This document shows, one piece after another, positions 48,518 through 57,475 of a DNA stretch of 64,000 bases (the first letter of the stretch is position 1; each line of letters opens with the position of its first letter). The stretch covers positions 3,798,501-3,862,500 of the forward strand of contig NZ_CP061718.1 in assembly GCF_014764365.1 (NCBI RefSeq), given 5' to 3'. The position numbers and the translations under genes are program-made. The notes beneath the pieces are model-generated. The model saw only the letters and a list, made by a program, of their open reading frames with translations. It was not told the origin of the DNA and made no database searches. The DNA comes from Roseococcus microcysteis (GTDB lineage Bacteria > Pseudomonadota > Alphaproteobacteria > Acetobacterales > Acetobacteraceae).

Positions 48518-49380
48518 CGCGGGCGCAGCCGGATGCTGAGGGGGCAATGGTCCGAGATCAGGTCGCGCATCGCGCGGTCGCGCTCGGCATAGACCATGAC
48601 GCGCAGGCTGCCCGGTACCATCCAACCCCGCGCCGGCCCGCCGAGCAGGATGTGGCTGATGAAGGGGCGCCCGCCGCGCGGCCCGGCCCAGCAGGGGTCG
48701 GAGACACCCTCATTGGCGCGCAGCAGCCGGCCGGCCTGTTCCAGGGTGGCACTCATCTCGTCGCGCGGATGGTCCATGCGGCGGTTGAAGTCGCCCAGGA
48801 TGGCGTAGGGGATGCCCTCGCGCTCCCGCGCCGCGACCCAGCCGGCGAGGACGGCGGATTGCTCGGCCAGGTTCGCGCATTGCCTGCTGCGATCGGCATC
48901 CAGCGGGCCGGACTGGCAGCCGGCGGCGAGGTGGATGGAGAGCAGCCTGAGCCGCCCGCCCGCCCATTCCACCGTGATGTCGGTGCCGCGGCGGTGGGAG
49001 AAGCGGGCACCGGGCGCCACGTCCAGCTCGACCAGGTCCGGGTTCTGCGTCACGCGCAGATGGCGGCGGACGGCGAAGCCGGTGCGCTGCACGTCCTCCT
49101 CGTCGGGGAAGAAGAAGGCGTGGTCGCGCGGGGAGAAGACGCGCGCGGCGGCCTCCGGCCCGTCCACCTCCTGCAAGGCCACGATGTCGGCTTCCAGCCG
49201 CTGGGCATAGGCCTGCAGCCGGGCGAAGTCGGCGGGACCACGGCGGTTGATCTCGGCCGGGATCATGGGATCGCCGGCCGGGCGGAGCGAGAGCCAGGCG
49301 ATGTTCCAGCTTGTCAGCCGAAGCTCGGCCGCCTGGAGGGGGGCGGCCACGAGCAGAAGCAACAGGATGAGGAGGCGCAT
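48514..49380 (-). CDS. Secreted endonuclease/exonuclease/phosphatase-family protein
   Basis: A 288-residue protein with a Sec signal peptide (MRLLILLLLLVAAPLQAA). The EEP fold (DNase I/exonuclease III/phosphatase) is shown by SWNIAWL, the metal Glu in ALQEVDG, GDFNRR and the SDHCPL catalytic His. Secretion suggests use of extracellular DNA or phosphoesters. It heads a minus-strand operon with MFS, PPK2 and the cyclotransferase. Confidence 0.9.
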   Translation of the reverse strand: MRLLILLLLLVAAPLQAAELRLTSWNIAWLSLRPAGDPMIPAEINRRGPADFARLQAYAQRLEADIVALQEVDGPEAAARVFSPRDHAFFFPDEEDVQRTGFAVRRHLRVTQNPDLVELDVAPGARFSHRRGTDITVEWAGGRLRLLSIHLAAGCQSGPLDADRSRQCANLAEQSAVLAGWVAAREREGIPYAILGDFNRRMDHPRDEMSATLEQAGRLLRANEGVSDPCWAGPRGGRPFISHILLGGPARGWMVPGSLRVMVYAERDRAMRDLISDHCPLSIRLRPR

Positions 49381-49422
49381 GGGGGCACCATGCCGCGAAA
49401 TGCGCGGCGCGGCGAGGCAGGC

Positions 49423-51462
49423 TCAGAGCAGCAATTCGGCGGGTGTCGCGGCCGGTGCGGGCACAAGGTCGCGCGCGCCGCAGGCGCGGAGGAAGTCCGC
49501 GATGGCGTCCATCTCGGCGGCGGGGCGCGTGGGGTCGTGAAAAGGGTCCTCGGCGGAGCTGCCGGGTGGCACCCAGATCACCGTCTCATAGCGCGCGCGG
49601 GTCAACAGCACGCGGTAGGTGTTCCGGATGAAGTCGCGTTCCTCCATGCCGGCCACCACCTGCCAGCGCGCGCCGGCGAAGGCCCGGCATCGCCAGCCGG
49701 CGCCGTGCCGGATGAAGTCGCCGCCCCAGGCCAGGCCCACCACGTCCAGCTCAAGCCCCTGGCAGGCATATTCGGTGGCGCAGACTTCCAGCGCGTCGGA
49801 GGCGCGGATGTCGGGCCAGCGTTCGAGGAACCAGGAGACGGGCTCATCGGTGCCGGTCAGTTCGGCGCCGAACCCCTCGCCACGCAGGCGCCGCGCGCCC
49901 GAGGAGCGCACGAAGCCCGCGCGCCGCAGCCCCGGCGCTATCCGCCGCAGCGCCGCCCGCGCCTCGGCCAGCGAGCGTGTGACGAAGTAAGGAACCCCGC
50001 CCGCCTCCGCCGCGATGCGCGCGGCCCGCCCCGCCTCGCCCCGCACCACGGCATCCACCCATTCCGCGCCCGCGGGGCTGCGGACGGAGCGGATGGGCAC
50101 CGTGAGATCGAGCGCCGGGTCGAGGCGGAGCCAAGGCCCGGGCATCAGGCGTTGCGCGGCGTCCGGCCCCTCCAGCACGCGCGGCGCGGCGACCGCGTGC
50201 CAGCCGGGCGCCGCGGCGATCACATGGCCCCATTCGGCCAGCCCCGCCTCGCCGGTGTTGATCTCCTGCCCCTGGCCGACCAGGGCGATGATGGCGGCGA
50301 AACCGGCATGGCGGCCCATGATGGCCAGCGCGTGCGCGGGCTCGCTCATGGTCAGCGTGCTCTTGCGGCGCTGTGTGTCGCGGCTCGCCTGGGCGGCGTT
50401 CCAGGCGCGCTGCGCCTCGTCGAAGACGATGACGCGTTCATGCGGGGCGGTGGGTTTGTGGGCATTGTCGCCCAGGAAATTGTGGACGTTCTGCAGCGCC
50501 TGGGCCGTCTCATGCCGGGCCGCGCGGAGGCGCCCGGCACGGCGACGCCGCTCCGGGTCATTGCTCGGGCCGAGTGCCAGGCTGATCCCCGCGCGGTCAC
50601 AGGCCAGGGCCTCGCGCAGCACCGCGACCAGCGGGGCGTTGCCCGTGAGGAAGGCCGTCCCTTCGCGCCGATGCTCGCCGAAGACCACGTTCAGCCCGCA
50701 CAAGGTCTTGCCGGCACCCGGCACGCCGGTGACGAAGACCACCACCCGCTCACCGGCGGCGCGCGCCGCGTCCAGGGCGCGGAGGATGGCCTCGGTGGTC
50801 GCGGTCAGGTTCGCCGTGTCCGCCCGTGCCGCGGCGATGTCGGCCACGGTGTTGCGCGCGAAGAGGCGGGCCGCGGCCTCCACGATGGTGGGCACGGGCG
50901 CATAGGCGGCTTCGAACCAGGTGCCTGGGTCGAGGGGAGGGGCATCGGGCGCCGCGTTGTGCAAGGTGGCGAGGCGTTCGGGCAGGTTCGCGGCGTTGGC
51001 CAGCGCCACGGGCGCCACCCCCGGCACCGGCAGGCCCAATTGCAGCGGCACGGTGCGCGCGCCGGTGGCGACCAGGATGGGAATGACGGGATGCGCGCGG
51101 CTGGCGGCGTGGAAATCATGCAGGTCCTGCGCGTAGTCCTCGACCTGGGCCAAGTCCGCCGCCGCCATTTGCGTCGCGCCCACCTTGAACTCCAGCACCA
51201 GAATGGCGCGCGCGGTCACCAGGACCACGTCTATCCGCCGTTCCAGCCGCAGCATGTCGTATTCGAAGCCGATCCGCGCCTCGGCCCAGCACGGCGCGGC
51301 CAGGGCCGCCTGCAACATCTGGGCCTGCGCTTCCCAGGCGCGCAGCTGCGCCGGCTCCCCTGCCAGCCGGCGCCGCATCTGCGCCGCGGCCAGGCGTGCG
51401 GCGATGGCCGCCGGTGCCGTGGCGAGCAGTTCAGGGACGGTCAGCTCCAGCCAGGCCCTCAT
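49423..51462 (-). CDS. Nuclease-helicase: PD-(D/E)XK-like domain joined to a DUF2075 (Schlafen-like) ATPase
   Basis: A 679-residue protein. Residues about 60-135 look like a PD-(D/E)XK nuclease: Asp78 in RRIDVV, Glu91-x-Lys93 in VLEFKVG. A P-loop follows (GVPGAGKT, 246-253) with Walker B VIVFDEAQ (344-351), and then late SF1-like motifs (TEYACQGLELDVVGLAWG near 585, RNTYRVLLTRAR near 623). This fits COG3410/DUF2075 proteins. Such proteins often accompany DNA defence, but this one is a solitary gene with an EamA gene overlapping its start. The role is not known. Confidence 0.8.
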   Translation of the reverse strand: MRAWLELTVPELLATAPAAIAARLAAAQMRRRLAGEPAQLRAWEAQAQMLQAALAAPCWAEARIGFEYDMLRLERRIDVVLVTARAILVLEFKVGATQMAAADLAQVEDYAQDLHDFHAASRAHPVIPILVATGARTVPLQLGLPVPGVAPVALANAANLPERLATLHNAAPDAPPLDPGTWFEAAYAPVPTIVEAAARLFARNTVADIAAARADTANLTATTEAILRALDAARAAGERVVVFVTGVPGAGKTLCGLNVVFGEHRREGTAFLTGNAPLVAVLREALACDRAGISLALGPSNDPERRRRAGRLRAARHETAQALQNVHNFLGDNAHKPTAPHERVIVFDEAQRAWNAAQASRDTQRRKSTLTMSEPAHALAIMGRHAGFAAIIALVGQGQEINTGEAGLAEWGHVIAAAPGWHAVAAPRVLEGPDAAQRLMPGPWLRLDPALDLTVPIRSVRSPAGAEWVDAVVRGEAGRAARIAAEAGGVPYFVTRSLAEARAALRRIAPGLRRAGFVRSSGARRLRGEGFGAELTGTDEPVSWFLERWPDIRASDALEVCATEYACQGLELDVVGLAWGGDFIRHGAGWRCRAFAGARWQVVAGMEERDFIRNTYRVLLTRARYETVIWVPPGSSAEDPFHDPTRPAAEMDAIADFLRACGARDLVPAPAATPAELLL

Positions 51463-52337
51463 GCCCGTGTCCTGCCAGGCCAGGTCGCCAGCAGCAAACT
51501 CCCCATCATCAGCGCGAAGCCCGCCGCATGGATCAGGCCGAAACGCTCGCCCAGAAACACCACCGCCGTCACCGCCGCGGTCGCCGGCAGGAAGCCCGTG
51601 AAGACGCCCGCCACCCCCGCCGGCACGCGCCGCAGCCCCGCGAACCACAGCACGAGGCACAGCACGCTGGCCGTCAGGGAATGGAACACCAGCAGCCCCA
51701 GCAGCGAGGGGTCGGCCAGCGCCGCCGCCGTGCCGAAGCCGGGGGCGGCGAAGGGCAGCAGCACCAGCGCCGAGAAGCCCTGCATCCAGAGCGAGGCCGT
51801 GAAGACCGGCACCGCGCCCGCGATGCGCTTGGCCAGCAGCACATAGATGGCCTCGCCACAGACACCCACGAAGATCAGCAGGTTCCCCAGCGCCGAGGAC
51901 GCGCCCGCGCCACCCCCCAGCCGCGCCAAGGTGATGGCGGCCATCCCCAACCCGGCCAGCCCCGCCGCCAGCCATTGCCGTGCCGAAAGCCGCTCGCGCA
52001 GCCAGAGGAAGCTGCCCAGCGCCACCACCGCCGGCAGGGTGGCCAGCACCAGCCCGCCCTCCAGCGCCGAGGTCAGCCGCAGCCCGGCCAGCAGCCCCGC
52101 ATTGTAGAGCGCCGTGCCGAAGACCGCCTGGAGGAAGAGGTTGCGCTTCACCGCGCCCGGCACCCGCACCGCGCCATCCAGCCAGCGCGCCAGCGGCCAG
52201 AGCACCGCCACCGCCAGCGCGCAGCGCAGGAAGGCGATGAGCGCGATGGGCAGTGCCTCCGCCAGCAGCTTCGCCACCGCCACATTCGCGCCGACCAGCG
52301 CCATCGCAAGGGCGAGCTGGCTGTAGGCCAGCATCAC
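51459..52337 (-). CDS. EamA-family (DMT) transporter
   Basis: A 292-residue permease with two EamA repeats, about ten membrane helices. Conserved spots are LAFLRCALAVAVLWPL-like in the first half (ALIAFLRCALAV) and VFTGFLPATAAVTAVVFLGE in the second. It probably exports a small metabolite or amino acid. Its stop overlaps the start of the nuclease-helicase gene by four bases, so the two are co-translated although unrelated. Confidence 0.9.
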   Translation of the reverse strand: MMLAYSQLALAMALVGANVAVAKLLAEALPIALIAFLRCALAVAVLWPLARWLDGAVRVPGAVKRNLFLQAVFGTALYNAGLLAGLRLTSALEGGLVLATLPAVVALGSFLWLRERLSARQWLAAGLAGLGMAAITLARLGGGAGASSALGNLLIFVGVCGEAIYVLLAKRIAGAVPVFTASLWMQGFSALVLLPFAAPGFGTAAALADPSLLGLLVFHSLTASVLCLVLWFAGLRRVPAGVAGVFTGFLPATAAVTAVVFLGERFGLIHAAGFALMMGSLLLATWPGRTRA

Positions 52338-52356: not shown

Positions 52357-52710
52357 TCACGCGGGCGGCGTCCGCGCCGGCACGCCGTGCTTCAGCCGGT
52401 CCACATCCACGAGCTGGACGGGGAAGCCCGCGATGTAGCCCTCGGCGTCGAAACCATAGCCCTCGGCCTCCAGCAATGCGCGCTGGGCGGGTTCGGCCAC
52501 GCGGCCATCCACCGCCACCAGGCGGTGCCAGGGCAGGCGGTCACGCTCGGGGCCATCGAGGCTGGCGATGATGTCGGCCACATCGCGGGGCCGTGCGTCC
52601 AGATGGGCGGCCACGGTGGCGAAGGTCACCAGCGCGCCGCGCGGCACATGGGTCGTGATGGCCAGGACATCGGCGCGGAGGCGGTCCACCTCGGGTGGGC
52701 TTGTTGTCAT
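52357..52710 (-). CDS. Alkyltransferase-like (ATL/MGMT-family) protein
   Basis: A 117-residue protein with only the DNA-binding domain of O6-alkylguanine transferases. The active-site motif PCHR is PWHR here (Trp61 in place of Cys), the hallmark of ATL proteins, which bind damaged guanines and flag them for nucleotide-excision repair rather than reversing the damage. FATVAAHLDARPRDVA is the helix-turn-helix region. It overlaps the acyltransferase gene by four bases. Confidence 0.92.
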   Translation of the reverse strand: MTTSPPEVDRLRADVLAITTHVPRGALVTFATVAAHLDARPRDVADIIASLDGPERDRLPWHRLVAVDGRVAEPAQRALLEAEGYGFDAEGYIAGFPVQLVDVDRLKHGVPARTPPA

Positions 52711-53867
52711 GTCTCTCCTCCCTCGCGGCGATAGGGCGAAAGCTCGGCCAGGTCCTGCATGCGTGCCTGCACGGCGGGCCGCTCCGCCTCCAGGAAATTC
52801 GCGACCGCATCCGACAGTCCGCGATGCTGGATGAGATGCGCCGACCAGGTGGGGCTGGGCAGGTAGCCGCGCTGGATCTTGTGCTCGCCCTGCGCGCCGG
52901 CCTCGACGCGGGGCAGCCTGTGCTGGATGGCGAAGTCTATGGCGCGCAGGTAGCAGAGTTCGAAGTGGAGGAAGGGCACCTCCTCCACGCAGCCCCAGTT
53001 GCGGCCATAGAGCGCGTCGTTGCCCAGCAGGTTCAGGGCGCCTGCCACGGGCTCACCGTCGCGCTCGGCCCACATCAGCACCACGCGCTCGCCCAGGCGG
53101 TCGCCCAGCAGGGGCCAGAACTGGGGCGTGAGGTAGGCGCTGCCCCAGCGGGAATCCACCGTGTTGCGGTAGAAGCCGTGGAAGGCGCGCCAATGCTCGC
53201 GCGTGATCTCGTCGCCGCGCAGGGTGCGAAGCGTCAGGCCGCTTTCCGCCACCTCCCGCCGCTCGCGCCGCAGGGCCTTGCGCTTGCGCGAGGAGAGCGC
53301 GCCGAGGAAGTCCTCGAAGGTCTCGTAGCCCCGGTTGTGCCAGTGGAACTGCACGCCCAGGCGTTGCAGCCAGCCCAGCCGGCCGAGTTCCTGCCACTCT
53401 TCCTCCGTGCAGAAGGTGACATGCACCGAGGAGCAGTTCAGCGCCCCCATGGCCTGGCGCAACCCCTCGGCAAGTGCGGCCACCGGCACGCCCGGCCGCC
53501 GCAGCAGGCGCGGCCCGGGCACGGGGCTGAAGGGCACCGCCACCTGGAGCTTGGGATAGTAGCGCCCGCCCGCGCGCTCATAGGCATCGGCCCAGCCATG
53601 GTCGAAGACGTATTCGCCATACGAATTGGCCTTGGCGTAGCAGGGCGCGCAGGCCAGCAGCGCCCCACCCTCGTCGCGCAGCGCCAGGTGTTGCGGCAGC
53701 CAGCCGGTGCGAGGCCCGGTGCTGCCACTGTCCTCCAGAGCCGAGAGGAAGGCATGGCTGACGAAGGGGTTGTCCCCCGCGCAGGCATCCCACTCCGCCA
53801 CCGGGATTTCCGCGATGGCGCGGTGCAGGCTGAGCGTCAGGGGGAGGGGCGAATCCATTCCCCTCAT
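52707..53867 (-). CDS. GNAT-like acyltransferase, COG3146/DUF482
   Basis: A 386-residue protein of the DUF482/COG3146 family, related to FemAB/GNAT acyltransferases. Characteristic parts are NPFVSHAFLSALEDSG near the start, SSRKRKALRRERREV, the FYRNTVDSRWGSAYL region and VEAGAQGEHKIQRGYLP near the end. The precise reaction is not known. Starts at 53867 and 53858 are both possible; neither has a well-placed ribosome site. It follows ridA by 10 bases. Confidence 0.88.
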   Translation of the reverse strand: MRGMDSPLPLTLSLHRAIAEIPVAEWDACAGDNPFVSHAFLSALEDSGSTGPRTGWLPQHLALRDEGGALLACAPCYAKANSYGEYVFDHGWADAYERAGGRYYPKLQVAVPFSPVPGPRLLRRPGVPVAALAEGLRQAMGALNCSSVHVTFCTEEEWQELGRLGWLQRLGVQFHWHNRGYETFEDFLGALSSRKRKALRRERREVAESGLTLRTLRGDEITREHWRAFHGFYRNTVDSRWGSAYLTPQFWPLLGDRLGERVVLMWAERDGEPVAGALNLLGNDALYGRNWGCVEEVPFLHFELCYLRAIDFAIQHRLPRVEAGAQGEHKIQRGYLPSPTWSAHLIQHRGLSDAVANFLEAERPAVQARMQDLAELSPYRREGGET

Positions 53868-53877
53868 GTAATGCAAT

Positions 53878-54339
53878 TCAGGCCAGTTCCAGGATGGCCT
53901 CGACCTCCACGGCCACATTGCCGGGCAGGGCGGAGACACCCACCGCGCTGCGCGCATGCCGACCGGCCTCGCCGAAGACGGCCACGGCGCAGTCGGACGC
54001 CCCATTGATGACCTGTGGCTGGTCGCCGAAGCCGGGGGCGGAGTTCACATAGCCCGTGATCCGCAGCACGCGCTTGACGCCGTTCAGGTCCCCACCCGCC
54101 GCCGCCCGCGCATGGGCGAGGATGGCGAGGAAGCAGTTCTCCGCGGCCGCCTTGGCCTCCTCCACGCTCACTTCGGCGCCCACCTGCCCGATGGGCCAGA
54201 GCTTCCCGTCACGCCGCGGTACCTGGCCCGAGACGTAGAGCGTCTTTCCGGAGATGGTGAAGGGAATGTAGTTCGCGACCGGCGCCGCGGCCGGCGGCAG
54301 GGTCAGGCCGAGTTCGGCCAGGCGGGCTTCGGGGTTCAT
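53878..54339 (-). CDS. RidA/YjgF family enamine/imine deaminase-like protein
   Basis: A 153-residue single RidA-fold subunit, expected to form trimers. ISGKTLYVSGQVPRRDGK and ARSAVGVSALPGNVAVEVEA with its conserved Arg are present. It belongs to the longer YjgF subgroup, so the archetype's 2-aminoacrylate deaminase role is likely but not certain. AAGGA precedes the start at 54339. It is 16 bases downstream of the NrdJ-like gene on the same strand. Confidence 0.9.
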   Translation of the reverse strand: MNPEARLAELGLTLPPAAAPVANYIPFTISGKTLYVSGQVPRRDGKLWPIGQVGAEVSVEEAKAAAENCFLAILAHARAAAGGDLNGVKRVLRITGYVNSAPGFGDQPQVINGASDCAVAVFGEAGRHARSAVGVSALPGNVAVEVEAILELA

Positions 54340-54355
54340 CGGCAATTCCTTGGTT

Positions 54356-55861
54356 TCAGGCCACGACGCGCAGCCGCCCGCGCCGTTCCGCGACAGGGGT
54401 GGCCGGCAGGTCCAGCGGCAGCAGCGGCGCCTGCTCGGTGGCGCGGGCGGTGGCGTCGGGCGCCACATCCTCCATCTCGGGCTGGGGCAGGGCGCCGCCC
54501 AAATAGTCCATGGCCAGGCGCCGGAAGGCCCAGTCCAGCACCGAGGTGGCGCGGGGAATGTCCGGGTCGCCCTCCACCACGCCGGCGGGGCCGAAGCGCG
54601 TATAGGCGAAGGCATCCACATAGGCGGCGAGCGGCACGCCCTGCGCGAGGCCGAGCGACACCGCCTGGGCAAAGCCATCCATCAGGCTGCGATAGGCCGC
54701 CCCCTCCTTGGCGAGGCTGAAGGCGATCTCGCGCAGCTTGCCATCCTCCTCGGAGGTGCGCAGCGCCACCCGATGCCCGCCGATGGCGACATGCAGCGTC
54801 TGGCCCAGTTGCCGGCGCAGGGGCGCGCGGGGCGCGGCGGCCGGGCGGGCCGGGGCGGGCAGGGCCACCGGGGCGGGAGCCGGCGCGCTGAGGAAGGGCG
54901 TCACCGCCTCCAGCATCAGGCGCCGCGGCGCGTCGCCCACCGGGGCCAGCAGGCGGGCCACCTGGTCCGGGGCGGCGCGGCGGGCGGCGGCGGTGGGCAC
55001 GTCCACCACGCCCGAGGGGGTGGAGACGGGCCGGCTGGCCCCCGGGGCGGGGGCGATGCCGGCGGTCTCGGCCCCCAGCAGCGCCTCGGCGGCATCGGCG
55101 GGCGAGAGCGCCACCACACGCGCATGGCGCAGGCCGGGGGCGCCCATGGCGGCGTCCAGCGCGGCACGGGCGGCGGCGGCGAGGCCGGGCACGGGGGTTT
55201 CGGCGGGCGGTTCGGGCCAGATCAGCGCCACCGGTTCCCGCGCGCCCAGCCGCTGGGCGAGGCGCCCGCTTTCGGTCTCGGCGGCACCGCGGGTGATGGC
55301 CGCGATGGCGGCGGCCACCTGCCGCGCGCCCGCGCTGTCATAGGGCAGGCCCAGCCCGGCCAGCAGCCCGGCGAGGTCGGCGAAGCCCAGGCGCAGCTTC
55401 AGGGGCTTGCCGCCCGTGCTGGCGTCGAGGAAGCGCAGGCCCAGCGCGCAGGCCTCGGTGTAGCCTTCCAGGTCGAAACCCCCCTCGGGCTCCAGGAAGG
55501 CGGGCAGGTTCAGCACGAAGCGGGGCTCGCCGCGCACCTCGCCGCGCCAGCTCTCGGCGCCGGGGGCGCCGCGGCGGGTCAGCAGCAGGGCGCGCCAGCC
55601 TTCGGCCAGGGCGCGGGCCTCATCGGCCTCGACCACGCCGGCCTTCTGGCCGCGGCTGAGGGCTCGGGAAATCCAACCCTCGGCCAGGCGGCGCAGCGAG
55701 ACGGGCCCCTGGCCGGGTGCGAGGGCGGCGAGCGCCGTCGCGGCCTCATCCTCCCAGGCCGCGGGCAATGCCACGGCGCGCGGGGCGGCGTCGGGGTCCG
55801 CCCCCGCCCGGGTGCGCCGCAGCGCGAGACCTTCCCACAGCGTGCCGTCATTATGTCCCAT
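54356..55861 (-). CDS. Degenerate B12-dependent ribonucleotide reductase (NrdJ)-like protein with TSCPD domain
   Basis: A 501-residue protein that looks like NrdJ with its catalytic core removed. The N-terminus (WEGLALRR...ALPAAWEDEA) resembles the start of alphaproteobacterial NrdJ. LGFADLAGLLAGLGLPYDS (158-176) matches the NrdJ LGLGYANLG...GIPYDS segment, and HARVVALSPAD...ETAGIAP matches its QVTVIAPTGTI...TTGIEP segment. The C-terminus (350-455: KEGAAYRSLMDGFAQAVS, GVPLAAYVDAFAYTRF) is a full TSCPD domain. The cysteines needed for radical chemistry are absent; full NrdJ is about 1200 residues. Reductase activity is therefore unlikely. The start at 55861 is the likely one but upstream frame remains open. 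Confidence 0.75.
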   Translation of the reverse strand: MGHNDGTLWEGLALRRTRAGADPDAAPRAVALPAAWEDEAATALAALAPGQGPVSLRRLAEGWISRALSRGQKAGVVEADEARALAEGWRALLLTRRGAPGAESWRGEVRGEPRFVLNLPAFLEPEGGFDLEGYTEACALGLRFLDASTGGKPLKLRLGFADLAGLLAGLGLPYDSAGARQVAAAIAAITRGAAETESGRLAQRLGAREPVALIWPEPPAETPVPGLAAAARAALDAAMGAPGLRHARVVALSPADAAEALLGAETAGIAPAPGASRPVSTPSGVVDVPTAAARRAAPDQVARLLAPVGDAPRRLMLEAVTPFLSAPAPAPVALPAPARPAAAPRAPLRRQLGQTLHVAIGGHRVALRTSEEDGKLREIAFSLAKEGAAYRSLMDGFAQAVSLGLAQGVPLAAYVDAFAYTRFGPAGVVEGDPDIPRATSVLDWAFRRLAMDYLGGALPQPEMEDVAPDATARATEQAPLLPLDLPATPVAERRGRLRVVA

Positions 55862-56000
55862 AGGGCGCAGGCTAACCCGCCCCGTCGCCCCAGGGAAGCC
55901 GGATGCGGTGGTCTGGCCATCCCAGGCCCACCATATCTTGTGGAAAAGCCGCGCGGCACTCCGGTTGGACGGCGGGCGCGTTTTGTGGGATGATGCGGTC

Positions 56001-56354
56001 ATGTCCGCCATCCGCCTTTTCTTCGCCCGCCTCACCAGCCGCAAGGTCGGCGCTGATGAGTTCGGCAATGTCTATTACGAGTCGCGCAAGCCCATGCCGG
56101 TCTACAACCGGCCTCGCCGCCTCGTGGCGCTGGCGCGCGGCCTCGACAGCTCCTCGGTGCCGCCCGAGTGGCATGCCTGGCTGCACCACACGACCGATGC
56201 GCCGCTCTCCGGGCCCAAGCATCCCTGGCAGAAGCCCCACCGCCCGAACATGACGGGCACCCCCGGGGCCTGGCGCCCGGCCGGCCATGACTATTCGGGC
56301 GGTCGCCGCCGCATCACGGGCGGCGACTACGAGGCCTGGACGCCGGGCGGCTGA
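56001..56354 (+). CDS. NDUFA12-family complex I accessory subunit
   Basis: A 117-residue member of the NDUFA12/B17.2 family, a supernumerary subunit of NADH:ubiquinone oxidoreductase shared by alphaproteobacteria and mitochondria. VGADEFGNVYYESR and PPEWHAWLHHTTDAPL are diagnostic. The C-terminus is basic and Gly-rich. It heads the group mlaD-small protein-DUF2155, an order common in alphaproteobacteria. Confidence 0.93.
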   Translation: MSAIRLFFARLTSRKVGADEFGNVYYESRKPMPVYNRPRRLVALARGLDSSSVPPEWHAWLHHTTDAPLSGPKHPWQKPHRPNMTGTPGAWRPAGHDYSGGRRRITGGDYEAWTPGG

Positions 56355-56406: not shown

Positions 56407-56895
56407 ATGAAGGCCCAAAGACTGGCCGAGATCGCGACGGGTGCCGTCGTCATCGCCGTGGCCGTGTTCTTCCTGGCCTATGCCGTCGTGCAGGGCGGCC
56501 GCGCCACCGCCGCCGGCGGCGGCCTGGTGCTGACCGCCGCCTTCGACCGCGTGGACGGGCTGAACAATGGCGCCGATGTCCGCATCGGCGGCGTGCGCGT
56601 GGGCTCCGTCACCGAGATGCGGATTGATCCGCGCACCTTCCTGGCGGAAATCACCCTCAACGTCCGTTCGGACCTGCAATTGCCGCGCGATTCCTCGGCC
56701 GAGATCCAGTCGGAATCCCTGCTGGGCGGCCGCTATGTCGCCATCGTGCCGGGCGGGGCGGAGCAGGTGCTGGCCAGTGGCGGGCGCATCACCGACACCC
56801 AGGGCTCGATCAGCCTGGAAAGCCTGCTGGGCCGCTTCATCTTCTCGGTGACCCAGATGAATCCCGGCGGCGAGGCCGCAGCGGCGCCTCGATGA
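56407..56895 (+). CDS. mlaD: MlaD-like MCE-domain lipid transport protein
   Basis: A 162-residue protein with one N-terminal membrane helix (about 10-29) and one MCE domain (about 38-115; LTAAFDRVDGLNNGADVRIGG core NNGADVRIGG). It is the substrate-binding subunit of the Mla phospholipid system that keeps the outer membrane asymmetric. mlaE, mlaF and mlaC are not beside it. Its stop overlaps the next ATG by four bases. Confidence 0.92.
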   Translation: MKAQRLAEIATGAVVIAVAVFFLAYAVVQGGRATAAGGGLVLTAAFDRVDGLNNGADVRIGGVRVGSVTEMRIDPRTFLAEITLNVRSDLQLPRDSSAEIQSESLLGGRYVAIVPGGAEQVLASGGRITDTQGSISLESLLGRFIFSVTQMNPGGEAAAAPR

Positions 56896-57110
56896 CCGCC
56901 CTGCCCGCCATCTGGCCTGGCGCCGATGGGCAGCCCATCGCATGTCGGGAGAAGCTGAAGGTCCTGGCGGAAAACCACGAAGAGGCGGCCCAGATCCTGC
57001 AGGATACCTTCGAGGACGCACTGCTCATGGGCGTGGACGAGGCCGCGATGCGCGACATCCTGGCCGGGTTGGTCGCCGGGCTGCGCAGCCCGAAGGGGCG
57101 GGGGGCGTGA
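56892..57110 (+). CDS. Small hypothetical protein between mlaD and DUF2155 gene
   Basis: A 72-residue, acidic, mostly helical protein of unknown family. Its ATG overlaps the mlaD stop and its TGA overlaps the next ATG by one base, which together make it a credible translated gene. No signal peptide or membrane segment is visible. Confidence 0.65.
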   Translation: MTALPAIWPGADGQPIACREKLKVLAENHEEAAQILQDTFEDALLMGVDEAAMRDILAGLVAGLRSPKGRGA

Positions 57111-57475
57111 TGCGCCGTCTCTTCCTGGCGGCCCTGCTGGCGCTCATGCTGCCCACGCTTGCTCAAGCCCAGGGCTGGGTCGAGCGCCGCACCGCCGAAC
57201 TCCAGGCGCTGGACAAGGTCACGGCGCGCATCTCCGTGATCCGCGCCACGCTGGGCCAGCCGCTGCAATTCGGCACGCTGACCATCACGCTGCGCGCCTG
57301 CCATGCCCGCCCGCCCGACGAGGTGCCCGATGCCGCCGCCTGGCTCGAGATCACCGATTCGCTCAGCCCGCCCAACAGCGGCCCCGTGTTCCAAGGCTGG
57401 CTCTTCGCCGCGGCCCCCGCGGTGAACATGCTGGAACATCCGGTCTATGACCTGCGCGTTCTGAGCTGCCGCTGA
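57110..57475 (+). CDS. DUF2155 protein, secreted
   Basis: A 121-residue protein with a Sec signal peptide (MRRLFLAALLALMLPTLAQA) and the DUF2155 domain: LDKVTARISVIRATLGQPL, LRACHARPP and FQGWLFAAAPAVNMLEHPVYDL. Two Cys may form a disulfide in the periplasm. Function is unknown, but its place after NDUFA12 and mlaD is conserved in alphaproteobacteria. 6S RNA and a strong terminator follow. Confidence 0.9.
   Translation: MRRLFLAALLALMLPTLAQAQGWVERRTAELQALDKVTARISVIRATLGQPLQFGTLTITLRACHARPPDEVPDAAAWLEITDSLSPPNSGPVFQGWLFAAAPAVNMLEHPVYDLRVLSCR

Follow-up and report, generated by a model that had tools for sequence, protein, structure and literature searches.

A putative NrdJ-derived pseudoenzyme at the ancestral nrdJ locus of Roseococcus microcysteis, with counterparts in other alphaproteobacterial families

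The window studied here is a 64,000-nucleotide stretch of the Roseococcus microcysteis genome, which consists of one 4.2-Mb contig. On its minus strand, at window:54356-55861, lies an NrdJ-derived gene encoding 501 aa plus a stop codon. Genes for RidA and a FemAB-like protein are found downstream, and those for NDUFA12, an MlaD-domain protein and a DUF2155 protein are divergent. The features of the locus are as follows, with the starts of the five neighbours set by eye.

54356..55861, minus strand: catalytically dead NrdJ descendant (Pfam, NCBIfam, profile-profile alignment, order-wide conservation)
55532..55861, minus strand: residues 1-110, likely NrdJ N-terminal remnant, a weak match (local hhalign P 0.0054; shuffles 0/100)
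54887..55531, minus strand: residues 111-325, fragments of the second barrel half, with GLPYDS, ETAGIAP and PTG changed to PAD (Pfam, alignments)
54482..54805, minus strand: residues 353-460, TSCPD domain, probably IscU-like (Pfam, alignments)
54404..54427, minus strand: residues 479-486, tail motif PLLPLDLP (39/39 aligned members; tail pLDDT <50)
53878..54339, minus strand: RidA/YjgF family neighbour, downstream, 16 bases past the stop (PF14588/PF01042)
52707..53867, minus strand: FemAB-like protein, conserved neighbour (PF04339)
56001..56354, plus strand: NDUFA12, divergent neighbour and marker of the ancestral nrdJ locus (PF05071)
56407..56895, plus strand: MlaD-domain protein, conserved neighbour (PF02470)
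57110..57475, plus strand: DUF2155 protein, conserved neighbour (PF09923)

Codon-position GC in the minus-strand frame was 0.83/0.60/0.92, consistent with a coding frame. The plus-strand open reading frame at 54350-55993 (547 aa) is antisense to the gene. Another very long plus-strand frame, at 48547-51846, is likewise antisense to other open reading frames; such frames are common at 72% GC and are a trap for gene callers.

The protein (P0002) was recognised by Pfam as carrying a TSCPD domain (PF12637; 38.3 bits at residues 361-451, gathering cut-off 22.8) and a Ribonuc_red_lgC match (25.7 bits at 117-271, cut-off 23.9). TSCPD was matched at E<=1 in 39/39 family members. Against the NCBIfam NrdJ model NF005736 the protein scored 152 bits, far below the cut-off of 1737. 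We then compared an alignment of the 39 family members (A3, which took 14 of the 20 loci fetched in the order-wide NrdJ-model survey) with one of 10 intact NrdJ proteins of 1221-1268 aa (A2). The profile-profile match had probability 100 and E 7.4e-57, with colinear pieces spanning NrdJ columns 489-1106. A 30-member set omitted five members without a start-motif match (L012, L014, L016, L033, L038). The original prediction was of a shrunken NrdJ-like protein without a reductase core, in which four pieces keep the order they have in NrdJ. Three of these, GLPYDS (171-176), ETAGIAP (265-271) and TSCPD, all fell inside the A3/A2 alignment, and reductase similarity outside TSCPD is given by the Ribonuc_red_lgC match and the colinear pieces from column 489. 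The fourth, the extreme N-terminus, fared less well. Local hhalign of the N-terminal 110 residues with the NrdJ N-terminus gave a weak match (P 0.0054 over 42 columns) whose score of 22.3 was reached by 0/100 column-shuffled controls (mean 11.6, maximum 21.4), but no match came from aligning these parts globally.

The nearest solved structures by sequence were the class II reductases 7b9p and 7b9q. The structural overlay proposed with the original prediction agreed with this: an AlphaFold2 model of the protein (mean pLDDT 82.6) had 7b9p as its best Foldseek match in the PDB (E 1e-9, TM 0.33 by query length, 250 columns). The protein thus shares with alphaproteobacterial NrdJ (NF005736; 7b9p/7b9q, from Rhodobacter sphaeroides) an ancestral locus, a colinear second barrel half and TSCPD, but is without its catalytic half, finger loop, redox cysteines and C-terminal cysteine array.

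The loss of catalytic parts was extensive. The A3/A2 match begins at NrdJ position 489-491, right after cysteine 487. Reference cysteines 199 and 487, which we take to be the active-site redox pair, are both gaps in P0002, and 0/6 positions of the C-terminal cysteine array are filled; a single cysteine is present in the entire sequence. Where the second barrel half of NrdJ has PTG, presumably its phosphate loop, P0002 has PAD. NxCxE was found in 10/10 intact references and 0/39 family members; the finger-loop passages of PMC9669993 give NPCxE as the motif holding the radical cysteine of class II reductases. The radical and redox cysteines are therefore gone, as predicted, and the known catalytic residues of the 501-aa protein are lost. 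When the 39 members were compared singly with the intact panel, mean identities for the catalytic half and the second half were 8% and 17%, against 53% (46-68) for TSCPD. The predicted TSCPD domain is kept, with only this 53% identity on average in the window's family. Judged from the alignments and the synteny, the protein is of common descent with NrdJ, and it lacks the catalytic core of an AdoCbl-binding class II reductase. Since the allosteric specificity site of the reductase presumably lay in the missing barrel half, a sensor must use another part, for example TSCPD. Sensing through the specificity site itself is not favoured, the first barrel half being absent. The predicted role as a regulator or nucleotide sensor is possible on this analysis.

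We next asked where the gene came from. The five neighbour-gene open reading frames of the window were matched 64 to 77 times in 80 named loci of the family. Among intact nrdJ regions of 17 other families, chosen from 35 genomes above the NF005736 cut-off, NPCSE was present in 17/17. NDUFA12, MlaD and DUF2155 lay beside intact nrdJ in 12/17 regions (one region per family), and RidA and FemAB in 2/17 each; the three marker genes were missing from 5/17, four without any marker and one with RidA alone. These counts come from single-sequence tblastn and are likely undercounts. Other families thus have an NPCSE-bearing nrdJ where the window has the dead gene; the window locus is the nrdJ locus, and the gene is an orthologue decayed in place. 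The original prediction of a paralogue of a working nrdJ is contradicted by this synteny and by the genome, where the searches gave no full NrdJ.

A relative at E<=1e-5 was present in 384/395 genomes of the order, and in 376/384 of the good-quality ones. On this conservation we reject a frameshifted fragment of a full nrdJ, which the original prediction had named as a finding that would refute it. The closest named relatives were from Roseococcus (97-98%). No relative was detected in 11/395 genomes, including all four sampled of one genus, g14 (G019, G065, G073, G112), indicating that the gene is dispensable. Two of these four, G019 and G073, have a larger reductase match, in frames of 827 and 761 aa. 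The NrdJ model found 0/84 order genomes above its cut-off; its TSCPD part matched in 79/84, and no such match was listed for G003, G013, G019, G065 and G073. Against two congeners dN/dS was 0.06 and 0.07 (dS 0.17 and 0.24); for TSCPD alone it was 0.02. In more distant comparisons the whole-gene ratio was 0.27-0.46, with dS near saturation and the ratio less reliable. The dead NrdJ gene is under purifying selection in the window's family. With its catalytic motif lost and the gene kept under selection, it is a pseudoenzyme.

To see which reductases the cell does have, the genome was searched with PF02867. Two matches were returned, the 501-aa gene and a 625-aa protein that is class I subunit alpha by NCBIfam and adjoins a PF00268 small subunit; class Ia NrdA and NrdB are thus present. 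No catalytic partner NrdJa was found, PF02867 giving only NrdA and the dead NrdJ gene, and the suggested role as a NrdJ partner is rejected, the genome having given no full NrdJ. No ATP-cone was detected in the genome's NrdA or NrdB.

Across the class, NrdJ scored above the cut-off in 239/389 genomes at least 95% complete. Following 24 genomes with intermediate scores (23 with intermediate E-values plus G401; we set aside G620, G678 and G730 of f80, along with weaker genomes, G445 and G603 among them), we found new dead NrdJ homologues in 13 families besides the window's, nearly always at the nrdJ locus. At least one marker neighbour was present in 17/18 dead regions fetched, the exception being an 11-kb contig. 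Of these genomes, 22/24 had a further match, whose frame of 620-678 aa is about the size of the window genome's class I alpha, the only one of these frames named by family search, and some genomes with intact NrdJ also show matches in frames of that size. N, C and E stood at the aligned finger-loop positions in 0/24 dead proteins. A regex search found NxCxE in 1/24 dead frames (NTCDE in L191), away from the aligned finger loop. A cysteine aligned to 487 is kept in L174, L176 and L177, and one aligned to 199 in L205/L218.

The dead frames range from 1120 aa (L151) down to 278-301 aa (f8, f80). The longest, L151:1253-4612 (plus strand, family f32), is a full-length NrdJ homologue whose finger loop is replaced and whose C-terminal cysteine array is lost; L169, of the same family, has NDUFA12, MlaD and DUF2155 nearby. 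In f32, f139, f132, f124, f52, f119, f8 and f80, TSCPD was 69-84% identical to the intact panel and the other three regions 41% or below; intact proteins compared with each other averaged 84% in TSCPD (range 78-91) and 70-76% in the other three regions. Loci L179-L184 and L196 had first been cut 1500 bases from the match. Repeating six of the seven (not L182) with longer frames left TSCPD values unchanged and gave N-terminal identities of 3-30%, still under 41%. TSCPD was lost or degenerate (0-28%) in f84, f94, f99 and f144, and 43% identical in f81. In one f84 genome (G623), NrdJ-like pieces at C1:1516676-1517779 and 3615270-3616661 lie far apart on one contig, and this copy looks like a broken gene. 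The near stand-alone TSCPD proteins of about 280 residues belong to two families with small AT-rich genomes: L185, L187, L188 and L192 (f8, f80) encode some 280-300 aa with little beyond TSCPD, next to the former nrdJ neighbours, in regions whose GC content is 27-29%. Those of f8 keep four aligned cysteines and those of f80 no array cysteine.

Mapped onto a tree built from neighbour proteins, the labels dead and intact needed 6 changes (bootstrap range 4-7), of which starred branches force 2; under half of the columns were filled for many rows, which makes the number of changes rough. Seven rows short of neighbours were omitted (L156, L160, L161, L162, L168, L208, L219). Without three long or AT-rich rows (L215, L209, L210) the tree needed 5 changes, and a single dead clade was rejected (p-AU 1.2e-5). 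Dead f99 stood beside intact f9 with support 100/95. These results support loss of activity more than once in Alphaproteobacteria; the direction of change is not given by the tree, and we infer loss. The window gene is a family-wide pseudoenzyme descended from nrdJ, and the class has several of the kind.

TSCPD is often well preserved in the dead proteins. At 25 of its positions, at least 39/41 intact and dead sequences agree (alignment A4; L064, L196, L053 and L034 were dropped, having no motif match), which suggests a shared surface. According to PMC5704485, the C-terminal domain of a class II enzyme is needed for dATP/dGTP-induced tetramers and hexamers and carries electrons via its cysteines; the same account gives hints of a further nucleotide site. 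Section 2.4 of PMC9669993 describes an IscU-like fold in the C-terminal region, proposes oligomerisation and gives the role of the IscU-like domain in class II reductases as unreported in the reductase literature. TSCPD is probably this fold, the two being equated from position and secondary structure. Foldseek of the TSCPD model against the PDB gave no match at E<=0.001 (best 3o6u, E 0.06), the ISCU/IscU chains 5wlw and 2qq4 were not significant (E 0.41 and 0.80), and a TSCPD sequence search of the PDB gave no match. The TSCPD part is thus common to the window protein and the cysteine-rich C-terminal domain in these accounts (PMC5704485; IscU-like plus zinc finger in PMC9669993), but the window protein has no zinc-finger cysteines, and there is no class II reductase for it to act on. 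The known form of electron transfer depends on the lost cysteines and is therefore an unlikely candidate for the retained function, which leaves assembly or ligand binding.

Our preferred reading is that nrdJ would have lost reductase activity in place and then stayed under selection, in a lineage that makes its deoxynucleotides by class Ia NrdAB. TSCPD would be a self-associating or nucleotide-responsive scaffold now binding another protein, and we infer that its function is independent of the reductase. The leading candidate partner would be the class Ia reductase, with no ATP-cone detected in it, and the disordered tail with its conserved PLLPLDLP would form a second contact. We are highly confident in a dead enzyme under selection and consider it probable that TSCPD is the functional module; a class I reductase as partner is a tentative suggestion. 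Taken whole, decay in place followed by retention for a catalysis-independent scaffold role has about an even chance of being right. A broader proposal is that TSCPD is an independent regulator whose nucleotide-dependent assembly acts on the cell's reductase or a replication partner, and that it therefore outlived the enzyme repeatedly, down to the near stand-alone proteins; we regard this as doubtful. TSCPD is not the kept part everywhere, given its loss in f84, f94, f99 and f144, the 43% identity in f81 and the 53% in the window's family, so the barrel may hold a second functional module, or loss may be slow. Inactive R1 homologues of beta-herpesviruses offer a parallel, being homologues of the reductase large subunit that have lost activity and gained other roles. 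They are class I and viral, unlike the window protein, and are not known to carry TSCPD.

Several alternatives were weighed against the scaffold reading. Under neutral decay, the gene would be an nrdJ pseudogene still open by chance. The shrunken protein with its catalytic half gone, the 11 order genomes without a detected relative and the two distant pieces in f84 are what such decay would leave behind. The low dN/dS between congeners, lowest in TSCPD, the presence of a relative across nearly the whole order and a TSCPD that stays close to that of intact enzymes in 8/13 further families all speak against it, and for the window's family we consider it very improbable. Scarcely credible is a split class II reductase, in which the gene is a NrdJb-like half and the catalytic half is encoded elsewhere. 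Its precedent is Pseudomonas aeruginosa, where the C-terminal domain is a separate NrdJb that the passages of PMC4520616 on it report as needed in vivo, and two dead f8 proteins are approximately TSCPD with four aligned cysteines. A domain encoded apart from the catalytic chain is a trait common to both, but NrdJb works by thiol exchange with its own cysteines and with NrdJa (same passages), and neither a cysteine array nor any other class II catalytic subunit was found for the window protein.

The tail motif raises the further alternative that what was kept is a function of the remnant barrel and the tail, for example as a sliding-clamp peptide, with TSCPD only stabilising the fold. P[LMS]LPL[DE][LF]P is present in 39/39 aligned members within a tail of pLDDT <50, and PLLPLDLP (window:54404-54427) looks like a candidate binding peptide. 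DNA polymerase sliding-clamp motifs are of the QxxLL/QLxLxL type. DnaA/Hda searches of the genome gave one suggestive Hda-like frame, in L225 (minus strand), holding QLALPLEL, which resembles the LPLDL core of the tail motif; its Hda match is weak, and Pfam gave nothing at E<=0.01 for the submitted stretch. A glutamine is not kept in the tail, standing at -2 in 19/39 members, elsewhere within -4 in 5 and absent in 15. The motif is also missing from the dead homologue L151, and not all named loci conform, some having variants outside the pattern (a count of 49/79 over the 80 named loci partly picked wrong frames and gives no conservation figure). We consider the clamp-peptide possibility quite unlikely. 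Closer to the scaffold reading is a dNTP-pool sensor, in which TSCPD would bind dATP or dGTP and control class Ia NrdAB, replacing the missing ATP-cone. The nucleotide-driven assembly and hints of a further nucleotide site in the C-terminal domain account of PMC5704485, the lack of a detected ATP-cone and the second 620-678 aa frame in 22/24 dead-NrdJ genomes are consistent with it. Loss of TSCPD in 4 of the 13 families with dead NrdJ, and the frames of that size in some intact-NrdJ genomes, count against it, and we rate it as unlikely.

No account of a dead bacterial NrdJ was found in the literature by titles and the starts of abstracts, with subscription papers mostly outside that scope, and term look-ups in PMC10715153 and PMC3019208 showed none. 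As the scaffold reading has the enzyme removed more than once and TSCPD left, free-living aerobes, and possibly Caulobacter, would allow the domain's job to be examined separately from catalysis. Our Caulobacter vibrioides control genome had a TSCPD match above cut-off and no match above the NF005736 cut-off. CCNA_01966 is named NrdJ or vitamin B12-dependent ribonucleotide reductase where it appears in PMC6538847 and PMC5869019. By its search scores, this Caulobacter gene may be dead; calling a dead gene a B12-dependent reductase would lead to wrong predictions about B12 dependence.
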